A DNA stretch of 64,000 nt, from the NCBI RefSeq assembly GCF_029919115.1, contig NZ_CP123990.1:1550001-1614000 (forward strand), written 5' to 3'. Shown in pieces: positions 18,701-31,077 of the stretch (positions are counted from its first letter, which is position 1; every line of letters begins with the position of its first letter). Under the pieces are notes generated by a model, which worked only from the letters and a program-made list of their open reading frames with translations, was not told the DNA's origin and did not search any database. This stretch comes from Variovorax paradoxus. Its GTDB lineage: Bacteria > Pseudomonadota > Gammaproteobacteria > Burkholderiales > Burkholderiaceae_C. A program made the position numbers and the translations under genes.

Positions 18701-20775
18701 AGCTGCACCGGCTCATCGAAGTGCAGGCCTACCGGCTGGCGTACTGGCGGGTGGCGTCGGACGAGATCAACTACCGGCGCTTCTTCGACATCAACGACCT
18801 GGCGGCGGTGCGCATGGAGCGCGACGACGTGTTCGAGGCCACGCAGGCCTTTGCGCTGGACCTTGCCGCGGCCGGCGTGGTGGATGGCCTGCGCATCGAC
18901 CACCCCGATGGCCTGTATGACCCTGCGCGCTACTTCAGGCAACTGCAGGACGGCTATGCGCGCCGCGCGGGCATCGTGCTGCCGGCCCCGGGGCCCGACG
19001 GCAGGCCTCAGCGCCCGCTGTACGTGGTCGCCGAAAAAATCGCCGCGTCTGAAGAAGAAGTGCCCGTTGAATGGCACGTGCACGGCACTACCGGCTACCG
19101 TTTTGCCAATGTTGCCAACGGCGTGCTGGTGGACACCGAGGCAGCAGATGCATTGCGGCAGACCTGGCAGCACTTCACCGGCGACGCGCAAGACTTCGAT
19201 GCCGTCGCCCGCGCAGGCAAGCATGAAGTGATGCGCAGCGCGCTCGCTTCAGAACTGAACGTGCTCTCTACCGAACTGCTGCGCATTGCGCGCGCCGACC
19301 GCACCACGCGCGACTACACGCTCAATGCGCTGCGTCGCGCGCTGGCCGGCGTGGCGGCCTGCATGCCGGTGTACCGCACCTACATCGTCGATGCGCCGTC
19401 CGCACAAGACGCGCATTTCATCGATGCGGCTACAGATGCAGCCGAACGCCAGAGCCTGGACGCCGACCGCTCCATCTTCGCCTTCGTGCGCCGCTCGCTG
19501 CGCGGCGAGGCTGCCGAGCGTGCGACGCCCGCACTGGCCGAGCGCGTGCGCCGCTTCGCGGTGCGCTTTCAGCAGTTCAGCGCACCCGTCGCGGCCAAGG
19601 GCGTGGAAGACACCGCCTTCTACCGCTACTTTCCGCTGAGCGCGCTCAACGAAGTGGGCGGCGAGCCGGATCAATTCGGGTTCGATGTGGACGAGTTTCA
19701 TGCGCTCAGCGCCGACCGCGCGCGCCACTGGCCGCACACCATGCTCGCCACTTCGACGCACGACAACAAGCGCTCGGAAGACGTGCGCAACCGCATCGAC
19801 GTGCTGTCTGAAATGCCGGACGAGTGGCGCAAAGCGCTGGCGCGCTGGCATGCGCTCTGCCGTGGCGGGCACGAGGCTGCTGCGCCTTCGCGGGCGGATG
19901 AGTACCTGCTCTACCAGACCCTGCTCGGTACATTGCCCTTCGGTGGGCTCAGCGCCGAAGCCATGCCGGCGTATGAGCAGCGCGTGCTGCAGTACATGCA
20001 AAAGGCCGCGCGCGAATCCAAGTCGCACACGCGCTGGACCCAGCCCGACGCGCAGTATGAAGAGGCGCTGGAAGCCTTGGTGCGAAAGATTCTTTCCGAT
20101 CGTTCGCAAGGCGGCTGCCTTGCCGACATCCAGCACATGGCCGATCGCCTCTCATGGTTCGGCGCGTGGAACGGCCTGACGCTGACGCTGCTGAAGTACG
20201 CCTCGCCCGGCGTGCCCGATCTCTATCAAGGCAGCGAGCTTGTCGACCTGAGCCTGGTCGACCCCGACAACCGGCGGCCGGTGGACTATGAACTGCGCAG
20301 CAAGCGGCTCGATCAGCTTCAGGCGATGGCCAGCGAAGCCGATCTGCCGGCGCGGGTGCAGTCACTCGCCGAGGCACCGCACGACGGGAGCGCGAAACTC
20401 TGGTTTATCTGGCGGATGCTGTCGCTGCGGCGAGAGCATGCGGAGCTTTTCCGTGACGGCAGCTATGAAGGGCTCGCGGTCGAAGGGCCGTTGGCCCGGC
20501 ATGTGGTGGCGTTTGCGCGGAGGCATGAAGGGCGGACGCTGGTGGTGATTGCGGGGAGGCTGTTTGCTGGTATCGCGCGGGGCGGGGCGGATGGGGGAGC
20601 GCCGGTGCTTCCTGAGGCGGATGCCTGGCGTGGGACGAGGGTGGTGCTGACTGATGGGCTTGGGAGTGCAAGGCTCGCGAATGCGCTGACCGGGGACGCG
20701 CTTGCAGCGGACGGCAATGTCGTGCCGCTTGAGGAGGCGTTTCGCCGGATGCCTTGGGCTGTGTTTTCCTTGTGA
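15730..20775 (+). CDS. Fusion of 4-alpha-glucanotransferase (MalQ) and malto-oligosyltrehalose synthase (TreY)
   Basis: 1681 residues. Residues 1 to about 710 are a complete GH77 amylomaltase: LRIDHVMGLMR (nucleophile about 472), VVGEDLGTVED (acid Glu about 520) and STHDLATLAGWW (about 570). After a short Arg/Ala-rich linker, VPRATYRLQFHKGFSF (about 727) opens a complete GH13_26 TreY: LRIDHPDGLYDP (about 1055), VAEKIAASEEE (about 1100) and TSTHDNKRSEDVRNRI (about 1342). No stop lies between them. The GTG at 15730 has GGAGG nine bases upstream; the in-frame ATG at 15721 abuts that GGAGG and is less likely. MalQ would disproportionate short glucans into substrates for TreY. The two are separate neighbouring genes in pseudomonads. 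Confidence 0.93.
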   Translation: MDDSSQWPADALERLCRHYGISATYFDAFGTQRHATPENLAALLAEFGVRPGTAAADAAEPALPPGLVVAAHAPHWSVHLSRHGHSAGKLRWRLRDEEGRLREGEADAHALHDGGCVLHLAEPLAPGYHRLQIDGLDGETMVVASPGRCYRPPAARDGGRVWGPAVQLYALRSPRNWGIGDFSDLDALIDSMAGQGADVIGLNPLHALFPTDPQRASPYSPSSRQRLNVLYIDVEAVDDFAVCEPARRRVEAPEFQARLAALREAPLVDHAGVAAAKFEVLELLFDHFRTHHLLRPGGPDAAGKAFLDFVAEQGEPLRRHALFEALQAHFAAADPQCWGWLAWPEAYRDIDATAVQEFAAQHADRLQYHQYLQWLAERQLARAGARCEALGMGIGLYLDLAVSVDRGGSDAWGAQHCFAVGASIGAPPDEFNPAGQNWGLPPLRPDRLRANHYQPFVQMLRENMRHAGALRIDHVMGLMRLFWIPPGRTAHDGAYVRYAVDEMLAIVALESHRHRCMVVGEDLGTVEDAMRDALARADVLSYRLLYFEKQGSGFTPPAAYPPAALVAISTHDLATLAGWWSGHDLRLRLALGLFPDPRLFDKQLLDRAQERIRLMLAVREAGLLSDDEAAQALALATPSPSAMQAIHAFLAAAPSALMVFQLEDVAGEVEQANMPGTVDTHPNWQRKLASSVEALAASDAMQGLAGHLRAARPRRSASAEPAPLLQARVPRATYRLQFHKGFSFDDAIRVLPYLAQLGVSHVYCSPIQRARAGSTHGYDVVAHAEVNPELGGAEGFARFVEALQANGLGQLLDMVPNHMGVLGADNAWWMDVLENGPASLFAQYFDIDWQPLNEELTGKVLLPVLGGHYGEVLSSGELVLHFEAAQGSFALRYFDHRFPLAPESYPTVLARALPHLKDPVLAAELASLSTAFGHLPGRHAQAPSQRSERVRDKELFKTRLAQLVQAHPALARAVLAAVAELNLASDSARDELHRLIEVQAYRLAYWRVASDEINYRRFFDINDLAAVRMERDDVFEATQAFALDLAAAGVVDGLRIDHPDGLYDPARYFRQLQDGYARRAGIVLPAPGPDGRPQRPLYVVAEKIAASEEEVPVEWHVHGTTGYRFANVANGVLVDTEAADALRQTWQHFTGDAQDFDAVARAGKHEVMRSALASELNVLSTELLRIARADRTTRDYTLNALRRALAGVAACMPVYRTYIVDAPSAQDAHFIDAATDAAERQSLDADRSIFAFVRRSLRGEAAERATPALAERVRRFAVRFQQFSAPVAAKGVEDTAFYRYFPLSALNEVGGEPDQFGFDVDEFHALSADRARHWPHTMLATSTHDNKRSEDVRNRIDVLSEMPDEWRKALARWHALCRGGHEAAAPSRADEYLLYQTLLGTLPFGGLSAEAMPAYEQRVLQYMQKAARESKSHTRWTQPDAQYEEALEALVRKILSDRSQGGCLADIQHMADRLSWFGAWNGLTLTLLKYASPGVPDLYQGSELVDLSLVDPDNRRPVDYELRSKRLDQLQAMASEADLPARVQSLAEAPHDGSAKLWFIWRMLSLRREHAELFRDGSYEGLAVEGPLARHVVAFARRHEGRTLVVIAGRLFAGIARGGADGGAPVLPEADAWRGTRVVLTDGLGSARLANALTGDALAADGNVVPLEEAFRRMPWAVFSL

Positions 20776-20798
20776 CAGCGGCCTGTCGGACTCAAGCC

Positions 20799-21095
20799 CT
20801 AATTGCGCGAAGCCTTGAAAAATGCGTCGTACGCGGCAGCGGTAAAGCCAGTGACACCTCGGCCGTTCGCATAGAGTTGAGGCACCCCGCTGTTGCCGCC
20901 GAGTTGCGCGTAGGCTGATCTGCCTTCCGCGGTGTCGATGTCCACCTCCCGATAACCGATGCCCTTGGCTGCCAAGTAGGCCTTTGCCTGTTTGCAGTAG
21001 CCGCACCACTTGGCAGAAAAAAGCACCGTGTCGCGAGGCGGCGCGGCAGATGTTCGGGCAGGGTCGGTGGGCTTGTAAATTGCGCCGCTGGCCAT
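20799..21095 (-). CDS. Glutaredoxin-fold protein with CGYC active site
   Basis: 98 residues from ATG at 21095, chosen because GGAGG lies just upstream; in-frame starts at 21149 and 21179 lack one. LFSAKWCGYCKQAKAYL gives a thioredoxin-type CxxC at about residues 33-36, and GGNSGVPQLYANGRGVTGF gives the cis-Pro and the GSH-site glycine pattern of glutaredoxins. It is a small thiol-disulfide oxidoreductase, probably cytoplasmic. It is convergent with the malQ::treY gene, 23 bp away. The substrate is unknown. Confidence 0.85.
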   Translation of the reverse strand: MASGAIYKPTDPARTSAAPPRDTVLFSAKWCGYCKQAKAYLAAKGIGYREVDIDTAEGRSAYAQLGGNSGVPQLYANGRGVTGFTAAAYDAFFKASRN

Positions 21096-21353
21096 CCGAC
21101 CTCCGCGCACCGCGCCGCCGAACCTTCGCAAATTTCGATTTCGCGCCATTAGAACCGCGTGTGTGCCGCACTTTTGCATCGAACTGTGGGCTCACGACAG
21201 GCTGCTTTGGGCGAGGGCCAATGTCTCAAATGGGCCCAAAGTAGAAGTTCGATTCTCTCCAAAGCGGACTCTCGCCGCTCGCGAAAAACTATTTGGCGTT
21301 GAGCCCGCATTGCTCGGAGTTGCTGGACGTCGTGCGTCCCTCTAAGTGCAGGA

Positions 21354-21758
21354 TCAAGGCTTTCCATTCCGTGCGTTTCGAATAACAAGTAGCCAAAAGA
21401 CCAGACCTCCGACTGCACCTGAACCAAGATAGTTAAGCGAGTCGAACAGTCCCGACTGAGCCCAACGCACGGAGTCGAACGGCATGGCAAGCTCATTCCA
21501 AAATGGAACGGCAAGCAAAAGGCCGCCAAGCGCAAATTGCCACCAACGTTTGAGGTTCCAACGTTTCATCGCCGCGTATGCAGGCAGACCGAAAACCAGG
21601 GCGCACAGAATTGCTAGCGGAAATCCTGCAATCCAATAGAAAGGTAGTCCGCACCAAGCGAATGTTCCCGCGAGCAAGCCAACTCCACAGGTACCAGCAG
21701 TCGCCAAGGCAACGCCGGCACAAGCGGAAAAGCAGAGCAACCCAAGAAATCGAAGCAT
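21354..21758 (-). CDS. Small membrane protein, unknown
   Basis: 134 residues with about four hydrophobic segments (residues 3-25, 26-60, 74-88, 108-127) and short charged loops (MKRWNLKRWW). Not recognised. Base composition is visibly less GC-rich than the flanking operons, and the gene stands alone between non-coding stretches. It is the last member of a run of single leftward genes with related hairpin repeats between them, so it may be a recently acquired cassette-like gene. Confidence 0.6.
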   Translation of the reverse strand: MLRFLGLLCFSACAGVALATAGTCGVGLLAGTFAWCGLPFYWIAGFPLAILCALVFGLPAYAAMKRWNLKRWWQFALGGLLLAVPFWNELAMPFDSVRWAQSGLFDSLNYLGSGAVGGLVFWLLVIRNARNGKP

Positions 21759-21846
21759 CCGTGCGCCCTAAGTTGTGGTGTGGCCGGGGCCGCTTTTGAT
21801 TCGTATCGAGGCTAAGCAAAGTTGCCGCGCAGGGATGCGAGCAACG

Positions 21847-21863
21847 TCTGCAATTGGCCGGTG
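21847..21863 (+). repeat. Degenerate copy of intergenic hairpin-motif repeat
   Basis: CTGCAATTGGCCGGTG resembles the core CTGCTGTTGGCCGAC of the copies at 22237, 23964 and 23343. It lies in the gap between the unknown genes at 21758 and 21898. This is the weakest copy of the set. Confidence 0.3.
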
Positions 21864-21897
21864 GGCGTCATAACGAGAGCGCGCGCTGCGAAGAGTT

Positions 21898-22194
21898 TCA
21901 GTCGTCTTCGCCAGGCGGCGCCCGTTCGATCGTCCATTGTTCTTCAGGACCCGAGCGAGTGGCCTGAAATCCGGGCGCAAGGTCGGCGAGTTGGGCTATT
22001 GCAGGGTCGAGTTCTAGGACATGGCCTAGACCAGCAAGCGCAACATCTTCCAGCTCCTCGCTCACCCCGTCTAGGAACTGCCATCCGTGATCATCTTCGT
22101 CATGTGAAACCAGTAGGATCGGCCTACTACGGTTCAAGACAGTTTTCGAGAAGACCGTTGCGCAGTTTCGAGGCTGATCGAATGGCCATTTCAT
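21898..22194 (-). CDS. Hypothetical protein, 98 aa
   Basis: An acidic soluble protein beginning MKWPFDQPRNC, with ILLVSHDEDDHGWQFLDG at about residues 27-44 and a C-terminal LDPAIAQLADLAPGFQATR. The SHDEDDHGWQFL pattern recurs, from memory, in small uncharacterised proteins of Burkholderiales and pseudomonads. It faintly recalls DUF2185-type proteins, some of which act as immunity proteins; I do not assign that function. It is a single gene flanked by repeat-bearing gaps in the lower-GC stretch. Confidence 0.65.
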   Translation of the reverse strand: MKWPFDQPRNCATVFSKTVLNRSRPILLVSHDEDDHGWQFLDGVSEELEDVALAGLGHVLELDPAIAQLADLAPGFQATRSGPEEQWTIERAPPGEDD

Positions 22195-22236
22195 GATGTC
22201 GCTTGGTATCTCCTGGTAGGTGTGGTCGCGCTAGAT

Positions 22237-22253
22237 GACTGCTGCTGGCCGGC
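22237..22253 (+). repeat. Degenerate copy of intergenic hairpin-motif repeat
   Basis: GACTGCTGCTGGCCGGC matches 15 of 17 bases of the copy at 23964-23980. It sits in the gap between the 98-aa unknown and the VOC gene. Confidence 0.45.
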
Positions 22254-22274
22254 AACCGTCGATGCTTCCTCGGC

Positions 22275-22646
22275 TCAGTCAGGGCGAGAAACATCCTCTC
22301 CAAACATCATGCGGTGACCGTCAATGGTCTCGATTCCAAACTCTCGCATGCCCCAGGGCTCTGTGCAAAGAGCCTTGACCATCTGCACACCCCGCGCAGC
22401 CAGATCCTTGTGCAAGCCAGTGACATCGTCGACCTCAATGTAGGCCATATATGAGTGCTCGCCCAGCTCCCGTGCGGCAGGTGTGTCCGGGCACTCTCCT
22501 GCCATGATGGTGCAGGCGTCGCGTCTGAACAGACGCCAGCCGGGCACTTCCTTCCATTCGATCGAGAACCCCAGGACGTCGCTGTAGAAATCGGCGGACC
22601 GGGCCAGGTCGCGCACTGCGATCACAAGTCGAGGTTGTTTGAGCAT
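22275..22646 (-). CDS. VOC (glyoxalase/bleomycin-resistance fold) protein
   Basis: 123 residues with one complete vicinal-oxygen-chelate domain made of two beta-alpha-beta-beta-beta units: RLVIAVRDLARSADFYSDVLGF at the front and MAYIEVDDVTGLHKDLAARGV from about residue 67. Potential metal ligands include the Glu of YIEVDD and the C-terminal Glu in MMFGED; the first His is not obvious, so metal binding is uncertain. Members include glyoxalase I, dioxygenases and antibiotic-binding proteins, and substrate cannot be read from the sequence. It is a stand-alone leftward gene between two hairpin repeats. Confidence 0.85.
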   Translation of the reverse strand: MLKQPRLVIAVRDLARSADFYSDVLGFSIEWKEVPGWRLFRRDACTIMAGECPDTPAARELGEHSYMAYIEVDDVTGLHKDLAARGVQMVKALCTEPWGMREFGIETIDGHRMMFGEDVSRPD

Positions 22647-22703
22647 GACGAATATGACGAAGGATCGAATGACTACCCGCAGGATTCTGCTTCAGAGATG
22701 AAG

Positions 22704-22761
22704 GTCGGCTTCTGGCCGACTGTAGCTAGTCGCGTTGCCGTCGCGAAACGGCCCGAAGCGG
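22704..22761 (+). repeat. Composite ~58-bp intergenic repeat, copy in RidA-VOC gap
   Basis: The repeat starts with a perfect 6-bp hairpin, GTCGGC TTCTG GCCGAC (22704-22720), continues TGTAGC, and about 27 bp later has CCCGAAGCGG (22752-22761). The same two blocks with the same spacing occur at 23964-24022. It lies downstream of the RidA gene and upstream of the VOC gene. Confidence 0.65.
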
Positions 22762-22906
22762 CTGTTCATACACGTCCGCATCGAGCCGCCGGAAATCCCA
22801 AACCTACAGCTTCAGAACGAACGCGAGACCGTCCCAGGGATACCAGACAAGGTAGCCTGTCGCGACAGCGGCCGCCGCAGCGGAGATTAAAGGCCGAAGT
22901 TCAATA

Positions 22907-23287
22907 CTAGGCCTCGGCGACAGCCGCGATCGAAATCTTCAGGCCCGGAATTCGTGCAGGCAGCTTCGCTCCCTGCCGCGCAGGCGGATTGGATGGAAAC
23001 CACCTGAGCCACTCCTCGTTCATGCCCACAAAGTCATCCTCGTCCGCGAGGACGACGGTGAAGCTCACCGCCTTGTCCATGGAGCTACCCGCTTCCTCAA
23101 GAATCGCTTGCACGTTGGTCAGGCACTGTCGGGTTTGTTCCTGGATTGTGCTGCCCACTATTGCACCTGTGACGACGTCCGCTGGCGAGGTGCCGGAGAC
23201 GAAAACGAGGCCAGCGGCTTTGACGGCCTGACTGTATGTCTGCGGTGGCTTGGCAGCCTTCGGTGTAAAAACAATATGACGAGCCAT
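22907..23287 (-). CDS. RidA/YjgF family protein
   Basis: 126 residues from ATG at 23287; GGAG precedes it, and an in-frame upstream start at 23335 lacks a ribosome site. The pattern YSQAVKAAGLVFVSGTSP, then IQEQTRQCLTNVQAILEEAGSS, then IPGLKISIAAVAEA at the end follows the Rid fold. The archetypal enamine deaminase has an Arg in the I-P-x-x-x-x-R-x-x-x E region; here a Lys/Arg-poor stretch (NPPARQGAKLPARIPGLKIS) replaces the usual motif, so true RidA deaminase activity is doubtful and a Rid1-7 subtype is likely. It is a single leftward gene flanked by repeat copies. Confidence 0.85.
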   Translation of the reverse strand: MARHIVFTPKAAKPPQTYSQAVKAAGLVFVSGTSPADVVTGAIVGSTIQEQTRQCLTNVQAILEEAGSSMDKAVSFTVVLADEDDFVGMNEEWLRWFPSNPPARQGAKLPARIPGLKISIAAVAEA

Positions 23288-23342
23288 TTGTTTCTCCAGC
23301 AAAAAAGGGGTGTCTTCCCAACCAGCCGTCGACAACGAGAGA

Positions 23343-23414
23343 CGGCTTCTGGCCGACTGTAGCCGGTCAGATCGTTAGCACAACTACCGTTCGGGACACT
23401 GCTCTCGGCCGAGA
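23343..23414 (+). repeat. Intergenic hairpin-motif repeat, two cores in one gap
   Basis: CGGCTTCTGGCCGACTGTAG (23343-23362) and the base after it are identical to 22706-22726. A second, diverged core ACTGCTCTCGGCCGAGA lies at 23398-23414. Both are in the gap between the exported unknown protein and RidA. Confidence 0.6.
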
Positions 23415-23439
23415 CAGCCGGCCGCACCCTGCAGCGTTA

Positions 23440-23895
23440 TTAATGCGTAGCACTATGAACGCGCAGCACTTCGTCTTTTTCCTTCAATGGCAGAAAGAAG
23501 ATTCCTGGTTTGAGGCTGGAAAATACCGCTCCCTTTAAGAGCAGAAGTCGAGTTGTTGCATCGTTCTGATGAGCGGCCCTGATCTCACCGAGGCTGTAGT
23601 GCATAAGCGGGTCAAGCGGTATGAGCAATTCCCCTGGTACTCGGTCTGCATTTGTAATCAGAGCCTCATCGACTGCCACGCGAAGACGAATGACATTCGC
23701 CGAACCAGGGCCAGTGCGCGCCTGGTCATCCGTGACCGGATTGCCCTTCCCGTCAACCATGTCAACGCTGACGACGTGGCCGACCAGTACATGGTCCGCC
23801 TCCGTAGCCATTGCGGTGAGGGACATCTGCAGCGGAAGGCTCGCCAGTGCAGCAAGGGGGATCGTTGCGATCAGCGACAAAAGAAGGCGTTTCAT
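23440..23895 (-). CDS. Exported hypothetical protein, 151 aa
   Basis: Begins at MKRLLLSLIATIPLAALAS (ATG at 23895), a Sec signal peptide with probable cleavage near residue 19; an upstream in-frame start at 23910 would put charged residues ahead of it. The mature part is beta-rich (VLVGHVVSVDMVDGKGNPV, LRVAVDEALI, RLLLLKGAVFSSLKPG). No family recognised. A periplasmic or outer-surface location is likely. It is flanked on both sides by the intergenic hairpin repeats in the lower-GC stretch. Confidence 0.65.
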   Translation of the reverse strand: MKRLLLSLIATIPLAALASLPLQMSLTAMATEADHVLVGHVVSVDMVDGKGNPVTDDQARTGPGSANVIRLRVAVDEALITNADRVPGELLIPLDPLMHYSLGEIRAAHQNDATTRLLLLKGAVFSSLKPGIFFLPLKEKDEVLRVHSATH

Positions 23896-23963
23896 CAAGC
23901 GTTCAAGCACTTCACAATCTCCATAACATCTGATCGCCGTAGCGCCGCACTACCGAGGGCGAG

Positions 23964-24022
23964 GACTGCTGTTGGCCGACTGTAGCCTCCCGCGCCGCCG
24001 GCAAAAAGTGGTCCCAAAGCGG
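23964..24022 (+). repeat. Composite ~58-bp intergenic repeat, second full copy
   Basis: GACTGCTGTTGGCCGACTG (23964-23982) continues into TAGCC, and CCCAAAGCGG (24013-24022) follows after a spacer of about 26 bp. This is the same two-block layout as 22704-22761. It lies in the gap between the unknown genes at 23895 and 24116. Confidence 0.65.
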
Positions 24023-24115
24023 TCCTCGTTATTGCCAAATAGCGGGCGCTCAGAAGCGACGTGTTGCGTTGAAGGCTGAGCCAAGCAATTGGGTGACATG
24101 CTCTTCAAGGCAGGG

Positions 24116-24508
24116 TTAGACGTTACCGTCGTACTTCTCCTTCAACTCGAAGTACACCTTCTTGCAATGCTCGTAATACTCGCGCTCGTCATCCGCTCTT
24201 TGCTGAGCTGGTTCTCCACTTTGAACAGGATCTGCCGCAGCGGCTTCGATGACCTCCAAAGACACGTTGTCTCCCGGCTTTAGGTCGTAGTCCTCAAACC
24301 AGACTAGATGATCGTCCTGGATGCCGGGGCCCCGCGAAGTAAGCCCACCAAGACGGAGATGAATGTCAAAGTCTTCGACGGCTCTGTGGGGGCGGCTTGC
24401 CGACCCAAGCTTACCAACAGCGGTAATGGTTGTCGTCAGAACGCCCAAATCATCTGCCCCTCCAACTACTGGCTGCTGATCGTTGAGTTGGACTCGAAAT
24501 GCAAGCAT
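24116..24508 (-). CDS. Hypothetical protein, 130 aa
   Basis: MLAFRVQLNDQQPVVGGADDLGVLTTTITAVG at the N-terminus looks like the start of a beta-sandwich or sheet. The middle has HLRLGGLTSRG and LKPGDNVSLEVIEA, then a charged C-terminal helix (EREYYEHCKKVYFELKEKY). I recall similar sequences only as uncharacterised small proteins, so no function is given. It is the upstream-most gene of the leftward cassette-like run. Its stop codon lies inside GTCTAAC, which resembles an integron core site but has no partner (see rejected items). Confidence 0.6.
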   Translation of the reverse strand: MLAFRVQLNDQQPVVGGADDLGVLTTTITAVGKLGSASRPHRAVEDFDIHLRLGGLTSRGPGIQDDHLVWFEDYDLKPGDNVSLEVIEAAAADPVQSGEPAQQRADDEREYYEHCKKVYFELKEKYDGNV

Positions 24509-24968
24509 GCTGTGCCTTGTTGACGGGACGTAGAAAGTCGCCTCTAGCGCATTCTGCCGCAGCGCGAAGGCCGGCCTGCCCAGAACAGGCGACTCAGACG
24601 CACTTCACTGTGTCGTTCTCTGGTACTCAACGAAGAGCCCGTGCCGGACCTATCGCGTCGTGTCTGGTGCCTCACCCTGGCATCGCGGAACCTGATGGCT
24701 CCCGACTCGTAGGGAAGCTCGGCGATGTTGAGCTCAGCGTCCGATGGTCATGCTTTTTGGATTGACGGGCGAATTGGCAGGCAGTCAGGAACGTCCGGTG
24801 TTGGCCGTATTCTGCCCTTAGGTTTTCCGCGCCGACGCGCCACTTGGCGTCATGCTCAAAGTCGCGCGCAGGCACCTCTCCTCTAGACAGGCAGCCGTCT
24901 TGCCGCAGCCGAGGAGCTCGCCATTGCGGATGCTTGAACGCCTAGACGACGTCTTTTAGCGACTGAGC
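24509..24968. other. Intergenic stretch without convincing gene
   Basis: Short open frames on both strands here have no ribosome sites and no recognisable motifs. The base composition resembles the lower-GC stretch next to it, so decayed coding sequence is possible. I saw no full copy of the intergenic repeat. Confidence 0.5.
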
Positions 24969-25316
24969 TCAACTTGGCTCATGGTTCGCTCTCGCAGCAG
25001 CTTGCAACAGTTCCAACGATAGGGCCCCCGGCAAGCTGTGCACTTCGCAGTACCAGACTTGGTAGCACCATCGCCCCTCGATCTGCTCAGTTCCGGCAAA
25101 GCTGATGGTGTCGAACGCGCACGCGACCACCTCGGGGCGCCAGAGGATGCCCAGCGGTGGTGGCACATTGTCCGGGCGCGCCTCCCACAGGCCGAGTTGC
25201 ATCCTTCCTTCTATGTCTCGCAGTGCCAGCATTCCGCACAGCCACGGCTGGTCGACGAACTCCCGCTTGCTCAGCCGGGTGCCGCCGCGGTATCGGGGTT
25301 TCATCTTCACGCGCAC
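24969..25316 (-). CDS. Hypothetical protein, 115 aa, behind a LexA box
   Basis: Begins GTG at 25316 (or ATG at 25304, MKPRYRGGTRLSKREF). It is a small soluble protein rich in Trp and Cys: PWLCGMLALRDIEGRMQLGLWE, then GRWCYQVWYCEV. No family recognised. The Cys/Trp pattern (three Cys at about residues 27, 83 and 89) could hold a metal, but that is speculation. A near-perfect LexA site lies 28 bp before the start, so the gene is probably induced by DNA damage. It is not next to imuA/imuB/dnaE2 or other SOS genes in this window. Confidence 0.65.
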   Translation of the reverse strand: MRVKMKPRYRGGTRLSKREFVDQPWLCGMLALRDIEGRMQLGLWEARPDNVPPPLGILWRPEVVACAFDTISFAGTEQIEGRWCYQVWYCEVHSLPGALSLELLQAAARANHEPS

Positions 25317-25343
25317 GACGAACTCAATTGCCTTAGAACTTTA

Positions 25344-25363
25344 TACTGTACAAATATACAGTA
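25344..25363 (-). promoter_or_regulatory. LexA (SOS) box
   Basis: TACTGTACAAATATACAGTA contains CTGT-N8-ACAG with AT-rich flanks and matches the gammaproteobacterial/betaproteobacterial SOS consensus (TACTGTATATATATACAGTA) at 18 of 20 positions. It overlaps a TATAAA element (25345-25340 on the minus strand) and lies 28 bp before the 115-aa gene. Confidence 0.85.
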
Positions 25364-25406
25364 TTTAGCGATGACGAGGCAATGAAAACGTGCCAGCAAC
25401 GTCGCT

Positions 25407-25775
25407 TCAGGCGAGGGCCAGGCGCAACGATTCAATCGTCGTATCGGCGGTGCAGATGCGGCGTTGCAGTTCGGCGTTAAGCAATCTCAAAAGCGCGCCG
25501 AGTTCGCTGCGGTTCACATAGACCTCTGCCGGGTCGTTCAAGCGCTTTGGCTCGATGAGCCCTTCGAGGCACGCGTATGCGCGGTGCACGTCGTGAATAC
25601 TGTTGATGTCGTCGCACGCCTGAAGCGCGAGCGACTCGGCGCTGTCTTGCAGCGGGCACGAGCTTGATTCAGCTGCAGCGTCAGGATTTGGTATCGCGTC
25701 CGGCGCAGCTGTGAGGTTTTCGGGAGGAGCGGGGAGCGTGGGGGCGTGCTCAGGCTCGCGAGCGGGTGTAGCCAT
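25407..25775 (-). CDS. Hypothetical protein, 122 aa, downstream of P4-like leader
   Basis: ATG at 25775 has GGAGG six bases upstream; the frame is open back to 25826 but only across the structured leader. Residues 1-50 are Pro/Ala-rich and probably disordered. Residues 60-122 are helical: LALQACDDINSIHDVHRAYACLEGLI, then VNRSELGALLRLLNAELQRRI. The arrangement resembles small helical proteins (DUF3077-like) that sit behind P4-type leaders in pseudomonads and Burkholderiales; this comparison is from memory and unverified. Expression is probably controlled by the seqA/seqB/seqC structure, because the seqC arm abuts its ribosome site. Confidence 0.7.
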   Translation of the reverse strand: MATPAREPEHAPTLPAPPENLTAAPDAIPNPDAAAESSSCPLQDSAESLALQACDDINSIHDVHRAYACLEGLIEPKRLNDPAEVYVNRSELGALLRLLNAELQRRICTADTTIESLRLALA

Positions 25776-25785
25776 TGATGGCCTC

Positions 25786-25996
25786 CAAGAGGTGCGGTTT
25801 GCTGAAACCGCCGCTCTCGCTGTCAAACGATTGGCGGCGACTCGGACGGGTTGACAGACCGGGCACCTCTTGCGAGAACCGGCAGGGCTCGCGCCCTCCC
25901 ATCCGAGCCGCCAAAAACTGGAGGCACGAACGAGAAAGCCGCAGATCCTGCGGAGGGACTGCGGCTTTCGTCGCAGAGGTGCTTCAGGCTGTCAAA
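25786..25996 (-). ncRNA. Structured leader with P4 CI-RNA-like seqA/seqB/seqC elements
   Basis: Reading the minus strand: TTTGACAG-6 nt-GCACCTCT (25996-25975, seqA-like); then about 100 nt with an 11-bp hairpin (25969-25934) and a 5-bp hairpin (25897-25884); then CAAGAGGTGC-CCGGT-CTGTCAA (25872-25851, seqB-like); then TTTGACAG-24 nt-GCACCTCTTG (25827-25786, seqC-like) touching the GGAGG ribosome site of the next gene. The middle element can pair perfectly with either flank, so the two pairings exclude each other. This is the layout of satellite phage P4 immunity, where CI RNA pairs with seqA and seqC to end transcription early. Homology to P4 is an inference from architecture. Confidence 0.6.
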
Positions 25997-26030
25997 CCTA
26001 ATCACGCCTTTTTCCTGACGTGACCGGCGC

Positions 26031-26036
26031 AGTATA
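26031..26036 (-). promoter_or_regulatory. Candidate -10 element for the structured leader
   Basis: TATACT on the minus strand (26036-26031) is a good sigma-70 -10 hexamer placed about 35 bp before the seqA-like element. No good -35 lies at 16-18 bp, so the call rests on the -10 and the position only. Confidence 0.3.
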
Positions 26037-26150
26037 GCGAGCAGGCTTTCCTCAAATTCCCAATGAGCCGACCGCCTGCCCGGCATCTGTCCGACATCTC
26101 CGCTGCTCGAAATCGCAGACCGTGCCATGAAGAAACTCCCAGGAGAATTC

Positions 26151-26540
26151 ATGGCTCAACTCAACCAACCTGTCGACAAGAGCGGATCTCATGACCGCGG
26201 TCATCCCGCACCATCGCCCGCAGACCTTAAAAAGGCTGCCGACGAATTCACTGAAGGGCCAAACGTCGAGGCAAGCCCTTGGGAGCTTCAGGCCGCGCGC
26301 GGAGAAACGCCGCTGCAAGGGCCTCGGGCAGAGAGCGCCCTCGACTGGGACGAGTTTCTGGCGCGCTACGGCGAGTGGAAAGAAGCGACGGTTCGTTTCG
26401 AGGCCGCCGTTCGCGAGATGAAGGCGGGCTCGGAGCAAGGCCGCTTGCAGGCGCAGCAGCTTGCGCGCGAACTTGCCCGTCTGCACCATGCGTTCATGGA
26501 GTCCTCGCAGCCTTACTTCCAGGCGTCGAAGGTCGATTGA
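26151..26540 (+). CDS. Hypothetical protein, 129 aa
   Basis: ATG at 26151 follows CAGGAGAATTC; an upstream in-frame start at 26127 lacks a site. The N-terminal 50 residues are hydrophilic and Pro-rich. The rest is one long charged helix (DWDEFLARYGEWKEATVRFEAAV, read in parts, then EQGRLQAQQLARELARLHHAF), suggesting a coiled coil. No family recognised. It converges with the PRC-barrel gene across a hairpin. Confidence 0.65.
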   Translation: MAQLNQPVDKSGSHDRGHPAPSPADLKKAADEFTEGPNVEASPWELQAARGETPLQGPRAESALDWDEFLARYGEWKEATVRFEAAVREMKAGSEQGRLQAQQLARELARLHHAFMESSQPYFQASKVD

Positions 26541-26548
26541 GGAGCAGG

Positions 26549-26580
26549 CTCCCCGCCGCCCCACATGGCTCAGCGGGGAG
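26549..26580. terminator. Hairpin between convergent genes
   Basis: CTCCCCGC (26549-26556) and GCGGGGAG (26573-26580) form a perfect 8-bp stem with a 16-nt loop between the convergent unknown gene and the PRC-barrel gene. There is no clear U tract on either strand, so termination is plausible but unproven. Confidence 0.35.
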
Positions 26581-26605
26581 GCGCTGAACGTTCCCTCTGG
26601 CTCTC

Positions 26606-26944
26606 TTACAGCCCGTAATACTTGTCGACCGTGCCGCTGTACGTGTCGTCGTAGTCGGGCACGCGGTCGCTCGCATACTTGGGCGCGCCCTCGAGCTGCG
26701 CCTTGTCCAGCGGCACCACATAGCCGTCTTGCGAAAGGTCGTACTTCAGCATGGGCCAAGGAATCGGATAACGGTCGGTGCCCATGCCCAGGAATCCGCC
26801 GAACTCCATCACGGCGTAGCGGACCTGGCCCGATACCTTGTCGATCATGAGGTCGTCGATGGTGCCGAGTTTGTCGCCCGCCGCGTTGTACACGGTGGTC
26901 CCCTCGACACGCTCTGAAGAAATAACCGGATTGGAACTTGTCAT
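26606..26944 (-). CDS. PRC-barrel domain protein
   Basis: 112 residues from ATG at 26944, the start of the compact domain; the frame is open far upstream but that is a shadow. EGTTVYNAAGDKLGTIDDLMI and SGQVRYAVMEFGGFLGMG are the hallmark strands of the PRC-barrel (photosynthetic reaction centre H-subunit / RimM fold). The C-terminal tail ends in an acidic/Tyr-rich segment (DYDDTYSGTVDKYYGL) common in stress-induced members. The function of these soluble proteins is unknown, and they are often induced by general stress. GGAGAC lies upstream of the start. Confidence 0.88.
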   Translation of the reverse strand: MTSSNPVISSERVEGTTVYNAAGDKLGTIDDLMIDKVSGQVRYAVMEFGGFLGMGTDRYPIPWPMLKYDLSQDGYVVPLDKAQLEGAPKYASDRVPDYDDTYSGTVDKYYGL

Positions 26945-27030
26945 GGAAGGTTGTCTCCGGCCGGCATTTCTGGGGATGTCGGCGTTGAATGTTGCAAAGC
27001 CCAGAGCTGCAACTCTCCGCTCTGCAAAAT

Positions 27031-27477
27031 TCATCCACATCGGTCGAGAGACCGTCGTGTTGTAGGCGCCTTTCGGCCGCCTGCGCGTGTTGCAGCCCGC
27101 AAGATGCGCTGGAAGGTCGGGCATTCCATGTGGCTGGGCGCGGGGCAGGCGGCGGCATGGCGCAGGCCGTCGCGCATGGCAGTGAGCTTGCGAATGGTCT
27201 TGTCGAGCTCGTCGGCCTTTGCCGCAAGCATTCGCCTGTCGATGCGCGGCACTCCCTCGGGCGCGAACATATGGCCGATCTCTTCGAGCGAGAAGCCCGC
27301 GGAGCGCCCCACCGAGATCAGCGCGAGCTTCTCCAGCACGCCCGAATCGAACAAACGGCGCAGGCCGCGCCGGCCGGTGGAGGCGATGAGCCCTTTCTCT
27401 TCGTAGAAGCGCAGCGTCGAAGCGGGAACGCCGGATTGCTGCGCCACTTCGGCAATGTCCATGTGAGTTGCTGCCAT
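27031..27477 (-). CDS. MerR family transcriptional regulator (SoxR-like, without Fe-S cluster ligands)
   Basis: 148 residues. The helix-turn-helix and wing, MDIAEVAQQSGVPASTLRFYEEKGLI, are classical MerR. The dimerisation helix covers about residues 80-108 and resembles SoxR (DELDKTIRKLTAMRDGL). SoxR would then have four closely spaced Cys holding [2Fe-2S]; here only two Cys remain (ACPAPSHMECP, about 113 and 121), so a different effector or a thiol switch is likely. The start is 13 bp from a palindromic operator shared with the divergent methyltransferase gene. Confidence 0.9.
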   Translation of the reverse strand: MAATHMDIAEVAQQSGVPASTLRFYEEKGLIASTGRRGLRRLFDSGVLEKLALISVGRSAGFSLEEIGHMFAPEGVPRIDRRMLAAKADELDKTIRKLTAMRDGLRHAAACPAPSHMECPTFQRILRAATRAGGRKAPTTRRSLDRCG

Positions 27478-27483
27478 TACCTC

Positions 27484-27514
27484 TTGACCTCAAGTCGACT
27501 TGAAGTTGCAAAGT
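27484..27514 (+). promoter_or_regulatory. MerR/SoxR-type promoter-operator with 19-bp spacer
   Basis: TTGACC (27484-27489) and CAAAGT (27509-27514) are separated by 19 bp. The perfect palindrome TCAAGTCGACTTGA (27490-27503) sits inside the spacer. An over-long spacer with a central dyad is the signature of MerR-activated promoters, and the dyad is close to the SoxR site CCTCAAGTTAACTTGAGG. It drives the methyltransferase gene rightward. Confidence 0.7.
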
Positions 27515-27552
27515 CTAGCTTCCGCCCATTCGGGCATGCAAGGAAAACGATC

Positions 27553-28410
27553 ATGAACATCAAGCAGCACACGGAAGGCAACGAGCAGGCCGCACTTTGG
27601 AACGGCCGCGCGGGGCGCGCCTGGGTCGATGCGCAGGAGTCGCTCGACCGGTTGTTCACTCCGTTCGAGAACCTGCTCGTGAATGAGGTGCGCGCCGCGC
27701 ACGGACGCCGGGTGCTCGACGTGGGCTGTGGCACGGGTGCAACCACGCTGGCCATTGCACGAGCGCTCGGCACGGAAGGCCGCTGCACCGGCGCCGACAT
27801 TTCAGAGCCGATGATTGCCGTCGCGCGGGCACGCGCCGGGCGCGAAGGCGCACCGGCAAGGTTTGTGTGCGGCGATGCGCAAAAGCAGCCCTTCGAGCCG
27901 GCGAGCTTCGACATGATCGTCTCGCGCTTCGGCGTGATGTTCTTCGACAGCCCGGTGCAGGCTTTTTCGAACCTGCTGAATGCGGCCAAGGGCGGCGCGA
28001 AACTTCGGGCGATTGCATGGCGCAGCGCCGCGGAGAACCCGTTCATGACCACGGCCGAGCGCGCCGCGTCACCTCTGCTGCCGAACCTGCCGGCCCGCAA
28101 GCCGGGCGCGCCGGGACAGTTCGCCTTTGCGGACCGGGGCCGGGTCGCGTCCATCCTGGAAGAGAGCGGCTGGGCCGGCATCGATATTCGCGCGATCGAC
28201 GTGGAATGCACGTTTTCTGAAAGCGATCTGCGTACTTATCTCACCCGTCTCGGCCCCGTCGGCCTGGCTCTTCAGGATGAAACAGACGAGCGCAGGCGCG
28301 CACAAGTTGTCGAAACCGTTCGTGCCGCGTTCCAGCCCTTTGTGCATGGCGCCGAGGTTCGCTTCACCGCCGCCTGCTGGATGATCGGCGCGCACGCGGC
28401 TGCTGCGTAG
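27553..28410 (+). CDS. SAM-dependent class I methyltransferase
   Basis: 285 residues from ATG at 27553, preceded by AGGAAA. The SAM site is clear: VLDVGCGTGATTLAIARAL (motif I, about residues 52-70), then GADIS (motif II) and FDMIVSRFGVMFF (motif IV/V, about 118-130). It belongs to the UbiE/type-11 group acting on small molecules; the substrate is not known. It is divergent from the MerR regulator and under the dyad operator, so it is probably the regulator's target. It ends 4 bp from the stop of the convergent oxidase gene. Confidence 0.88.
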   Translation: MNIKQHTEGNEQAALWNGRAGRAWVDAQESLDRLFTPFENLLVNEVRAAHGRRVLDVGCGTGATTLAIARALGTEGRCTGADISEPMIAVARARAGREGAPARFVCGDAQKQPFEPASFDMIVSRFGVMFFDSPVQAFSNLLNAAKGGAKLRAIAWRSAAENPFMTTAERAASPLLPNLPARKPGAPGQFAFADRGRVASILEESGWAGIDIRAIDVECTFSESDLRTYLTRLGPVGLALQDETDERRRAQVVETVRAAFQPFVHGAEVRFTAACWMIGAHAAAA

Positions 28411-28414
28411 CGCT

Positions 28415-31077
28415 TCAACCCAGCAGCCGCGGCACGAGTTGCACCGTGAGTGCGCCGATGATTCCCTGCGCTGTGACGCAGTGCCACATGAGCCCGGTGT
28501 TGTCGATGGTCGCGCGCGCCGTGGGCAGCAGCCGGCCCGCCCAGGAGCGCACCAGCACATAGCCGCCCATCAGCATGATCACGGCAATGTGAAAGGCCTG
28601 GTAGCCGAGCAGCATGCCGACCGATGCACTCCAGCCTTGCGCGCGCGGATCGAGTTGCGCCAGCACATGGCCGCCGATGTCGAGCGCGGCTGCTGCTGCG
28701 GCGGCCACCATGGCCAGCGCCACCAGCGTGCGCAGCAGGCGCTGGCCGCGTGCATGCGCAGTGCGCGCCATGCGCGTGGCGGCCAGCATGGCGGCCGAGC
28801 TTGCCGCGAGCAGCAGGGCCGTGGCCAGCGGCCAGCGCGTGGCGGGCAGGGCGGCACCGGGTGGCGGGCACACGTCGCTTGCCATTGCAAGGTGCACGTG
28901 GGTGTAGAGCAGCGAGACGAAGATGGTCATGTCCACAGCAATCAGCACGATCATGGCCCACCATGAATGCGATGTGCTGCCATGCGCGCCCACCGGCAGG
29001 TGCACGCCGTGGCCCACGTCCACCGTTGCAACAGGCGGAGGTTGATCCGAGTCCCATAGCCAGCGCAGGATGAATGCAATGGCGAGCACGCCGCACGCAA
29101 ACGCCGGCACCGTCTGCGAAACCGTGAGAAGCAGAAAGAAGCCTGCGGTGCCCGCCGCCGCGCCCAGCGGCCACCAGCTGTCGGTGGGCAGGCGCAGCAG
29201 GTGCAACGGCCGCGCGTCGCGCAGGCTGGTCATCAGCGTTTCGCGGCCGCCGAACACGGTGCGGGGCAGCCAGTGGTGGCCGGCCTCGACCTCTTGCGGC
29301 AGTGCGGGGTTCTTCCAGAGTGGATAGCGCGAACCAACCTGCGGAATGCTGCGCGCGCCGTATTCGCGCGGCGGCAGCCATTCGAGAGTGCCTGCGCGCC
29401 ACGGGTCGCCGTGGTCGCGGGGCGGCCGCCGCAGCGTGCGAAACGCATCGATGAAAAAGAGCAGCACGCCCGCCGCCAATACATAGGCGCCGACGGTCGA
29501 CAGCATGTTGAGTGCGTTCCAGCCCAGGCTGCCGTCATAGGTGTACACGCGACGCGGCATGCCGAGCATGCCCGCAATGTGCATCGGGAAGAACGCCAGG
29601 TTGAATCCGCCGAACATGAGCCCGAAGACCCAGCGGCCCCATCGCTCCGAAAGGCAATGGCCGTTGAAGAGCGGTGCCCAGTAGTAGAACCCTGCAAACA
29701 CCGGAAACACCATGCCGCCGATGAGCACATAGTGCAGGTGCGCCACGATGAAGTAGCTGTCGTGGGCCTGCCAGTCGAACGGCAGCACCGCCACCATCAC
29801 ACCGGTAAGGCCGCCCAGCACAAAGATGAAGTGAAAGCCGAGCAAGAACAGCGTAGGCGCATTCAGCACGACGCGGCCGCGCCAGAAGGTGGCAATCCAC
29901 GCGAACACCTGCACGCCGCTGGGGCGCATTCAGCACGACGCGGCCGCGCCAGAAGGTGGCAATCCACGCGAACACCTGCACGCCGCTGGGTATGGCGACG
30001 ATGAAGCTCGCAGCGGAAACGATCAGCAGCGAGAGGTTGCCAAGGCCCGCGGTAAACATGTGGTGCGCCCACAGCGCAAAGCTCACCACGCCCACGCCGA
30101 TGAGCGCCAGCACCACCGCACGGTGGCCCACCAGCGGCGTGCCGGCAAGCGTTGCCACCATCATCGAGACCATGCCGGCCGCGGGCAAGAAGATGATCCA
30201 GCGGCGTGCCGGCAAGCGTTGCCACCATCATCGAGACCATGCCGGCCGCGGGCAAGAAGATGATGTAGACCTCGGGATGGCCGAAGAACCAGAACAGGTG
30301 CTGCCACAGCAGCGGATCGCCGCCGCGCGCGGGTATGAAAAACGGCCAGTCGAATGCGCGCTCCAGCTCGAGCAGCATGGTGGCGGCAATCACGGCCGGA
30401 AACGCGATGACGATCATCAGCGCGCTCACCAGCATGGCCCAGGCAAAGATGGGCATGTGCATCAGCTTCATGCCCGGCGCGCGCGTGAAGAGAATGCCCA
30501 CGATCAGCTCGATGGCGCCCGCAATGGCCGAGATTTCGATGAACCCGATGCCCAGCAGCCACCAGTCGGCGCCGCGCCCGGGCGAAAACTCCTTGCCCGT
30601 GAGCGGCGGGTACATGAACCACCCGCCGTCCGGAGATTCGCCGAAGAAAATGGTGCAGAAGAACGCCAGGCCGCCAATGGCATAGGCCCAGAACGCATAG
30701 GCCGAGAGCAGCGGAAACGGCAGGTCGCGCGCGCCGAGCATGCCCGGCAGCAAATAGATGGCCACGGCCTCGACGATGGGCACCGCAAACAGAAACATCA
30801 TCACGGTGCCGTGCATCGTGAAGAGCTGGTTATAGGTGTTGGCGTCGATCAGGCCGTTGCCGGGCACTGCCAGCTGCGTGCGCATCAAGAGCGCCAGGAT
30901 GCCGGCCAGCACAAAGAACAGCATGGCCGTGGCAATGTAGAACACGCCGATGCGCGTGTTGTTGACCGCCGACAGCTGGCGCCAGCCGGTGGGCGGCTTC
31001 CACGCGCGCTCCAGCGCCTCGCGTTCCGCTTCGGGGCGCGGGGGCAGGTTTGCTGGCTCGGTCGCGGCTTGGATCAT
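28415..31077 (-). CDS. ctaD: Cytochrome c oxidase subunit I fused to subunit III (frame broken by two 67-bp duplications)
   Basis: ATG at 31077 overlaps the stop of the subunit II gene. The N-terminal part carries subunit I signatures ([57 protein letters not shown]). From about residue 590 it continues into a subunit III-like helical region with [20 protein letters not shown] and [14 protein letters not shown]. As given, the frame shifts at about 30131-30264 and 29856-29989, each holding an exact 67-bp tandem duplication. Deleting one copy of each leaves 2529 bp, exactly 843 codons, so the true gene is probably intact at 842 aa. It is an inner-membrane terminal oxidase. Confidence 0.9.
29856..29989. 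repeat. Exact 67-bp tandem duplication inside ctaD
   Basis: 29856-29922 and 29923-29989 are identical. The duplication shifts the ctaD frame by one base. The unit length is the same as in two other duplications nearby, which suggests an assembly join. Confidence 0.97.
30131..30264. repeat. Exact 67-bp tandem duplication inside ctaD
   Basis: 30131-30197 and 30198-30264 are identical, again with a unit of 67 bp. It repeats the codons around [20 protein letters not shown] and shifts the frame. Confidence 0.97.

Follow-up and report, generated by a model that had tools for sequence, protein, structure and literature searches.

Variovorax is a soil bacterium. In this study, 64,000 nucleotides of Variovorax paradoxus (contig NZ_CP123990.1, positions 1,550,001 to 1,614,000 of the forward strand), referred to here as the window, were analyzed. 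On its minus strand, the window carries a gene for a 122-aa protein preceded by a leader of several RNA elements (Table 1). In 5′ to 3′ direction, TATACT, a hairpin, the boxes a′ and b′, a terminator-like hairpin, a C4 RNA, a second a′, a further hairpin, a second b′, GGAGG, and the open reading frame (ORF) follow each other. Two copies of a target thus flank the C4 RNA, the A element upstream together with the terminator-like hairpin, and the C element downstream at the ribosome binding site (RBS) of the 122-aa gene.

Table 1. Elements of the leader and gene in the window.
Feature	Position	Strand	Basis
Whole cassette	25407..26057	minus	homology breakpoints against relatives G004 and G072
-10-like hexamer TATACT of the unit's predicted promoter	26031..26036	minus	found at this place in numerous type-I units, both C4-bearing and C4-less
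5′ hairpin of the leader, start of A (GTCACGTC..GGCGTGAT)	26001..26024	minus	predicted folds
A element, box a′ TTTGACAG, in loop of AGG..CCT hairpin	25996-25989	minus	sequence
A element, box b′ GCACCTCT	25982-25975	minus	complementary to C4 box b
Terminator-like hairpin with T-rich tail (GAAAGCCGCAG..CTGCGGCTTTC)	25932..25969	minus	fold and scan
C4 antisense RNA	25830..25918	minus	Rfam RF01695 and predicted fold
C4 box b CAAGAGGTGC	25872-25863	minus	read in sequence
C4 box a CTGTCAA	25857-25851	minus	read in sequence
C element, box a′ TTTGACAG	25827-25820	minus	sequence
Hairpin in C element, between second a′ and second b′		minus	part order on the minus strand
C element, box b′ GCACCTCTTG, overlaps RBS	25795-25786	minus	sequence
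RBS GGAGG	25786-25782	minus	precedes ATG 25775
Protein of 122 aa (type I within the cassette family)	25407..25775	minus	ORF; predicted two-helix hairpin

The Rfam search that an earlier reading of this locus (the original prediction) had proposed as a check assigned the middle element to the C4 antisense RNA family (RF01695; cmscan) with 58.8 bits against a gathering cut-off of 45, an E-value of 8.5e-9 over the window, and coverage of model positions 1-87 of 87. The order A-C4-C matches seqA-CI-seqC of P4 immunity. Thereby, the predicted P4 CI-like layout of three elements was borne out, the likeness being one to the C4/CI family in general and not to P4 specifically. Also, the proposed complementarity of the middle element to either the upstream or the downstream element was found, but it is divided between two separate boxes, a and b, and does not form a continuous duplex. 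The downstream element adjoins the GGAGG of the 122-aa gene as predicted, its b′ overlapping this motif. The A region (26037-25981) matched the Rfam family of C4 targets, c4-a1b1 (RF03163), with 30.2 bits, under the cut-off of 46.7 (E 8.7e-6), and isrK (RF01394) with 21.7 bits, under the cut-off of 50 (E 0.015); the E-value for c4-a1b1, although the score is below the cut-off, points to a distant kinship. On the 5′ side of the C4 stem, GGCGG is located, a placement that would fit processing of C4 from a longer transcript by RNase P.

The predicted folds of C4 (-51.9 kcal/mol, z -4.5) and of the A region (-47.1 kcal/mol, z -4.3) were more stable than those of all 200 shuffles in each case. A promoter scan revealed no consensus sigma-70 promoter before the leader. 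In the terminator scan, which detected the hairpin behind A, 0.9 such sites are expected by chance in the region; its plan is common to the leaders of relatives and of phages. The 5′ leader hairpins of relatives have different complementary stems, e.g. TCGCGC/GCGCGA or CCTCG/CGAGG (by eye).

Among 11 neighboring proteins (20799-29929) scanned with Pfam, no phage domain and no satellite replication or integration gene were detected, so that the predicted absence of phage genes holds within the scope of these 11. Domains found were glutaredoxin, glyoxalase, RidA-type, MerR, COX1, and PRC-barrel; the other five proteins had no match over the curated cut-off.

A longer frame of the 122-aa ORF, with 139 aa, starts at an upstream TTG (ORF list). 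AlphaFold2 (pLDDT 77.6, pTM 0.55) predicts helices at residues 41-74 and 89-121 and a low-confidence N-terminus. For the window protein, no family match was obtained in Pfam, PHROGs, NCBIfam, or PADLOC, nothing usable among sequences of solved structures (best E 0.65), no Foldseek match of the predicted two-helix hairpin at E 0.001 in PDB or BFVD, and no tblastn match among the 50,697 phage records and 72,556 plasmid records searched; relatives were not found in viral contigs by a pattern scan. Three other cassette proteins had no match over the cut-off in Pfam and PADLOC. By eye, the cassette proteins comprise four sequence types, mostly of 90-130 aa, three of which align with the window protein at 24-61% identity, the fourth being the FKPFEW type. 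The relatives are under purifying selection (median dN/dS 0.20, all 105 pairs <1).

Covariation and specificity of the pairing code

For the analysis of the pairing code, 118 of 140 loci yielded 120 units, while 22 loci, all from the family level, gave none; six units of other genera were left out, resulting in a parsed set of 114 units at 112 loci in 34 genomes. Two loci came from the source genome, 29 from among the genus-scan matches listed, one from the family scan, and 80 from multi-copy genomes, which are over-represented since these 80 were chosen from them. Seven a-words were found, namely CTTCC (34), ACGCC (27), CTGTC (18), CTGCT (16), AGACC (10), AGTCC (7), and AGGCC (2), and together with box b 68 distinct a+b codes.

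Covariation of the three elements in related genomes, on which the original prediction had made its proposal depend, was strong. Where the A loop was placed code-free (109 units), its a′ matched box a of its own C4 at all five bases in 107/109 loci, compared with a mean of 21.8 and a maximum of 35 in 2000 shuffles; the two mismatches were L109 and the solo C4 L124. With only one locus per distinct code, 64/65 matched (shuffled mean 13.2), and each of the five a/a′ positions showed two or three standard pair types. TT plus the core complementary to a was present in the own A element of 106/114 units, in the own C element of 102/114, and in both of 99/114 (shuffled means 21.8 for A and 21.0 for C, with a maximum of 35 in 1000 for C). 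Code-free placement of a′ in C gave 86 full matches in 109 (shuffled mean 18.4), a figure lower than the code-based 102/114 because this placement misframed some loci. For box b, the longest exact complement, counted with G-U pairs excluded, had a mean length of 6.7 (A) and 7.5 (C) bases at the own locus versus 4.8 and 4.9 at other loci.

The strict match in A or C failed in 15 of the 114 units: in five by the flanking TT only (L066, L067, L068, L082, and the second unit of L088), in seven with one side missing (L005, L008, L010, L011, L014, L089, L126), and in three that are solo C4s (L124, the first of L088, and L114). At L088 and L114, which are syntenic in two genomes, a solo C4 with the word AGGCC stands before a full unit (L088) and a C4-less unit (L114).

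Eight syntenic groups contain 30 of the 114 units and allowed code changes to be followed in place. Between L112 and L130, GGAAG is replaced by AGCAG in A, C4, and C, the leader being otherwise nearly identical. Concerted changes of all three elements were also found for L026 versus L087/L113/L091, L103 versus L086/L094, L012/L013 versus L140, and L115 versus L132/L105. At L070 versus L133, a and b are changed in A, C4, and C, and the new b pairs with A only by including G-U; at L098 versus L086, b is changed in all three, requiring G-U pairs in A and a bulge in C (both by eye). These joint changes in place are the strongest single line of evidence that A, C4, and C probably pair in vivo.

Within genomes, the codes tend to differ. 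Among 274 same-genome pairs of units, 36 share a, 4 share b, and none shares both, where cross-genome shuffles give expectations of 53, 9.8, and 4.5, respectively, and a fraction of 0.0075 of the shuffles is as low as 0. This avoidance of the full code (0 versus 4.5) is weakened because it is confounded by orthology. When orthology was controlled, the full code was shared by 0/15 close within-genome paralogs versus 69/306 close between-genome pairs, and for distant pairs there were 0 matches versus 1.13 expected. The avoidance is then weaker and keeps its direction, which we regard as suggestive and not as proof. In genomes with at least three units, and among the C4s taken in per genome, the own C4 was the best match for 84/90 C targets (two ties, four with another C4 better) and for 74/90 A targets (seven ties, nine with another better). 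For the 12 C4-less copies, parsing succeeded in eight, and none of these had a C4 matching both boxes among the C4s taken in, the lists of which are incomplete for some genomes; L202 and L200 have one or two C4s with the same a in their own genome.

Occurrence of the cassette family and leaders in phage contigs

The source genome (5.81 Mb, one contig) contains two C4 loci and three copies of the protein. Its second C4 locus (L002) precedes a homologous protein, and at the third protein copy (L197) an A element is fused to the RBS without C4. In the genus, C4 was detected in 47/100 genomes with 187 matches, summed from the per-genome counts, and at most 13 per genome; genomes drawn from the family and the class were positive in 29/200 and 18/274 cases. 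All three scans used stricter filters, by which weak matches may be lost. Two genomes stand out by their numbers, G137 (L038) with 12 C4 matches in 2.7 Mb and G572 (L298) with six in 1.5 Mb, four of these clustered in 1.4 kb of contig C9.

A profile of 12 type-I proteins matched 45 of the 100 genus genomes, all of them among the 47 with C4, and none of the 53 without; in the remaining two C4 genomes, G043 and G067, C4 is followed by proteins of other types (L022, L013). C4 and protein are linked at the level of the genome and not of the single copy: among 20 copies selected as having no listed C4 next to them, six had a full leader, 12 including L197 had A without C4, L208 had a broken C4, and L199 had no leader in the 330 bases shown. 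Copies of the protein without C4 are common, so that control by C4 can be dispensed with.

In other genera of the family, leaders of the C4 plan stand before unrelated genes, some of them degenerate. At L040 and L044 of another genus, a C4 leader precedes a short ORF of nine codons (MADTLSAKT) and a strong terminator-like hairpin, i.e. the gene appears to have been lost and the leader retained. The C4-scaffold pattern also matched eight viral contigs. Seven viral-contig leaders align with the window leader at 75-80% identity, L145 not being among the matches listed, and their parts have the same order. Box a′ is kept in C of 8/8 and in A of 7/8 contigs, L144 being cut by the contig end. Behind C4, L147 and L148 carry Rha and AntA genes; L148 also has a terminase and a second Ant gene, and L143 a primase. 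The code words CTTCC and AGTCC are common to phage contigs and chromosomal units. The leader is considered to be of phage type because homologous leaders of the same order occur in phage contigs, and also before unrelated genes in other genera. The simplest reading would be a capture of such a leader by chromosomal genes, presumably in this direction. The suggestion that an immunity RNA was captured in front of a chromosomal gene is supported, the leader being homologous to leaders of phage contigs, two of which precede Rha and AntA genes.

Proposed mechanism, alternatives and known systems

We propose, with a probability of roughly three in four (about 0.77), that the locus is a self-silencing cassette, in which a C4 immunity leader of phage type is joined to a small gene of the chromosome and C4 limits the 122-aa protein via A and C. 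The RNA family, the three-way complementarity with its covariation, the coding constraint, the multiplicity, and the cassette-like ends form the established part of this model. A, C4, C, and the gene would be expressed from a single promoter. Part of the transcripts would end at the hairpin behind A, similar to IsrK, and C4 would be processed from those reading through. C4 would then pair with its boxes a and b to A, favoring the stop, and to C, covering the RBS. The 122-aa protein would be made only until C4 accumulates, e.g. when DNA enters a cell without that C4. We infer that the unit is transcribed and processed, in which direction and how strongly it is controlled, and any role upon entry into naive cells. 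The best reading is that captured phage immunity leaders form self-silenced, mutually insulated cassettes.

Within the model, the evidence for repression at C is stronger than that for termination at A. Equilibrium folding of 71 of the 114 units, the pattern not being found in the rest, gave a terminator probability of 0.98 with or without C4 bound, which does not support an equilibrium terminator/antiterminator switch. A competing CTGCG/CGCAG hairpin (mean probability 0.74) occurs only in the nascent RNA before the 3′ arm of the terminator exists; therefore, an attenuation step would rest on kinetics. As the terminator is predicted irrespective of C4, transcripts are likely to terminate there by default, with a certain amount of read-through as in the case of IsrK.

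As an alternative, the locus could be the remnant of a prophage immunity region: the small gene would be cargo of the phage, and C4 with its leader would have been retained either fortuitously or because it protects against superinfecting phages of the same code. This would fit the homologous leaders that precede Rha, AntA, and further small ORFs in phage contigs, and the occurrence of the code words CTTCC and AGTCC in both phage and chromosome. Against it, the window protein was unmatched in the phage and plasmid records and, by the pattern scan, in the viral contigs. The dN/dS of 0.20, the A and C target sites staying in step with C4, and the lack of phage domains among the 11 neighbors, which bears on the window only, argue in the same direction, and we consider a remnant unlikely. 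C4s that stand without a target of their own (L124, the first of two in L088, and the sole C4 at L114), and likewise targets without C4, would fit a network acting in trans, in which the C4 of one cassette regulates other cassettes or host mRNAs, as proposed for A. baumannii. Against this stand the 0/274 same-genome pairs with a common full code, the own C4 usually being the best match, and the 0/8 parsed C4-less copies with a both-box C4 among those taken in, with lists incomplete for some genomes. A trans network therefore appears quite improbable to us.

The terminated short RNA behind A might itself be the active molecule, an activator or sponge of the IsrK type, with C4 merely as its antagonist. 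IsrK of Gifsy-1 is described as such an activator in the accessible text of PMC4825925, the A region resembles isrK below the cut-off (21.7 bits), and the terminator is strongly predicted. The C element, however, repeats the A boxes beside the RBS, which is a classical repression target, and as A and C bear boxes of the same sense, they should not pair with each other through them. We give this explanation very little weight and retain the self-silencing cassette as the preferred reading.

The cassette shares with C4 of P1/P7 (RF01695) the RNA fold and Rfam score, two antisense boxes, and a C target at the RBS. It differs by its chromosomal location, many codes per genome, and targets on both sides; also, the target gene of P1/P7-type systems is an antirepressor, whereas the 122-aa protein has no antirepressor match in Pfam, PHROGs, or NCBIfam. 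For P1/P7, a few base changes in the loop restrict cross-reactivity, as cited in the accessible part of PMC5320573. The order seqA-RNA-seqC and a terminator-like hairpin are shared with P4 CI RNA, which pairs with seqA and seqC (PMC4825925, accessible text). Unlike in P4, no P4 genes were found in the 11 neighbors scanned, and the downstream gene encodes a small protein predicted to be helical. In Gifsy-1 IsrK/STnc1160 and Burkholderia cenocepacia ncS23/ncS24, an A element with terminator also precedes a C4-like RNA, in one transcription unit there and predictedly so here. According to the accessible text of PMC4825925, the RNA downstream of IsrK seems to be processed from read-through transcripts. 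The accessible part of PMC4603805 reports by dRNA-Seq of B. cenocepacia an 81-nt isrK RNA with terminator directly 5′ of a 90-nt C4 in one transcription unit, the RNA lengths being inferred and unconfirmed according to its table. Gifsy-1 is a prophage, whereas the cassette stands alone and its A element scores under the isrK cut-off.

Many C4-like RNAs per genome are also a property of the A. baumannii Group 1 C4-like sRNAs; strain AB5075 has 21, varying in the a′ loop, and the accessible part of PMC5320573 names no cis target genes for them. Chromosomal C4-like RNAs were thus known without known target genes, as far as that part of the paper extends. In contrast, most units analyzed here have their own two targets and a gene, and the covariation of the code was measured. 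Work on small and antisense RNAs of Variovorax concerns other loci in the accessible part of PMC7494200. No report on the cassette family was found in searches of an open-access library, most subscription papers being outside this coverage. The 114 units with 7 a-words and 68 a+b codes show which bases decide on pairing, and that the RNA and both targets change together. Two questions thereby become directly testable in a natural set: how an antisense RNA and two targets can acquire a new specificity and remain functional, and whether genes of the chromosome are able to act as immunity groups. The family also provides a ready collection of insulated antisense regulators.

Cassette ends, possible mobility and neighboring features

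In G004, the relative with the highest identity at the flanking PRC-barrel gene, 45 bases take the place of window positions 20766-26057, and homology resumes at 26058, approximately 20 bases before TATACT. The 5.3 kb absent from G004 comprise glutaredoxin, glyoxalase, and RidA-type genes in addition to the cassette and mark a variable site. Another relative, G072, shares 25410-27416, where the upper limit is set by the extent of the compared locus and the lower one, at which G072 departs, coincides with the end of the ORF in the window. At L002, the leader homology ends at 1721, and the flanks of seven relatives stop aligning at 1777-1806, 56-85 bases farther out. Among 107 between-genome pairs with at least 75% protein identity, which are not independent since they stem from few clades, 53 share neither flank, 29 both, and 25 one. 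Where a flank is unshared, the alignment usually breaks off no more than a few tens of bases from the unit ends, often at most 3 bases from the stop codon. The median dS of 0.37 suggests that neutral flanks should still align.

No convincing terminal repeats were seen at the cassette ends by eye; as neither these nor an enzyme were found, we only infer mobility of the ~650-bp cassette. Variovorax chromosomes might carry mobile cassettes of roughly 650 bp, reaching from promoter to stop codon and having no transposase of their own, with the C4 RNA as incompatibility system. A newcomer would express its protein only if no resident had the same code, so that heteroimmune cassettes would accumulate and codes would diversify. 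We put this forward tentatively and consider it rather doubtful on balance; if true, phage immunity groups would have been re-created among chromosomal genes.

Two further features were noticed in the window. The region of cytochrome oxidase subunit I is split into overlapping ORFs and contains direct repeats at 29856-30264 (67-base offset, 77 shared 30-mers, at least two stretches), which represent tandem duplications, either real or due to an assembly error. A palindrome, TACTGTACAAATATACAGTA, is located at 25344-25363 before a 115-aa gene (25316-24969) and resembles a LexA box. No such box was found at L248 and L249. The same palindrome is present at the paralog of the 115-aa gene in the source genome (L252), and a distant relative (L250) has a similar box; therefore, the 115-aa gene may be SOS-regulated.
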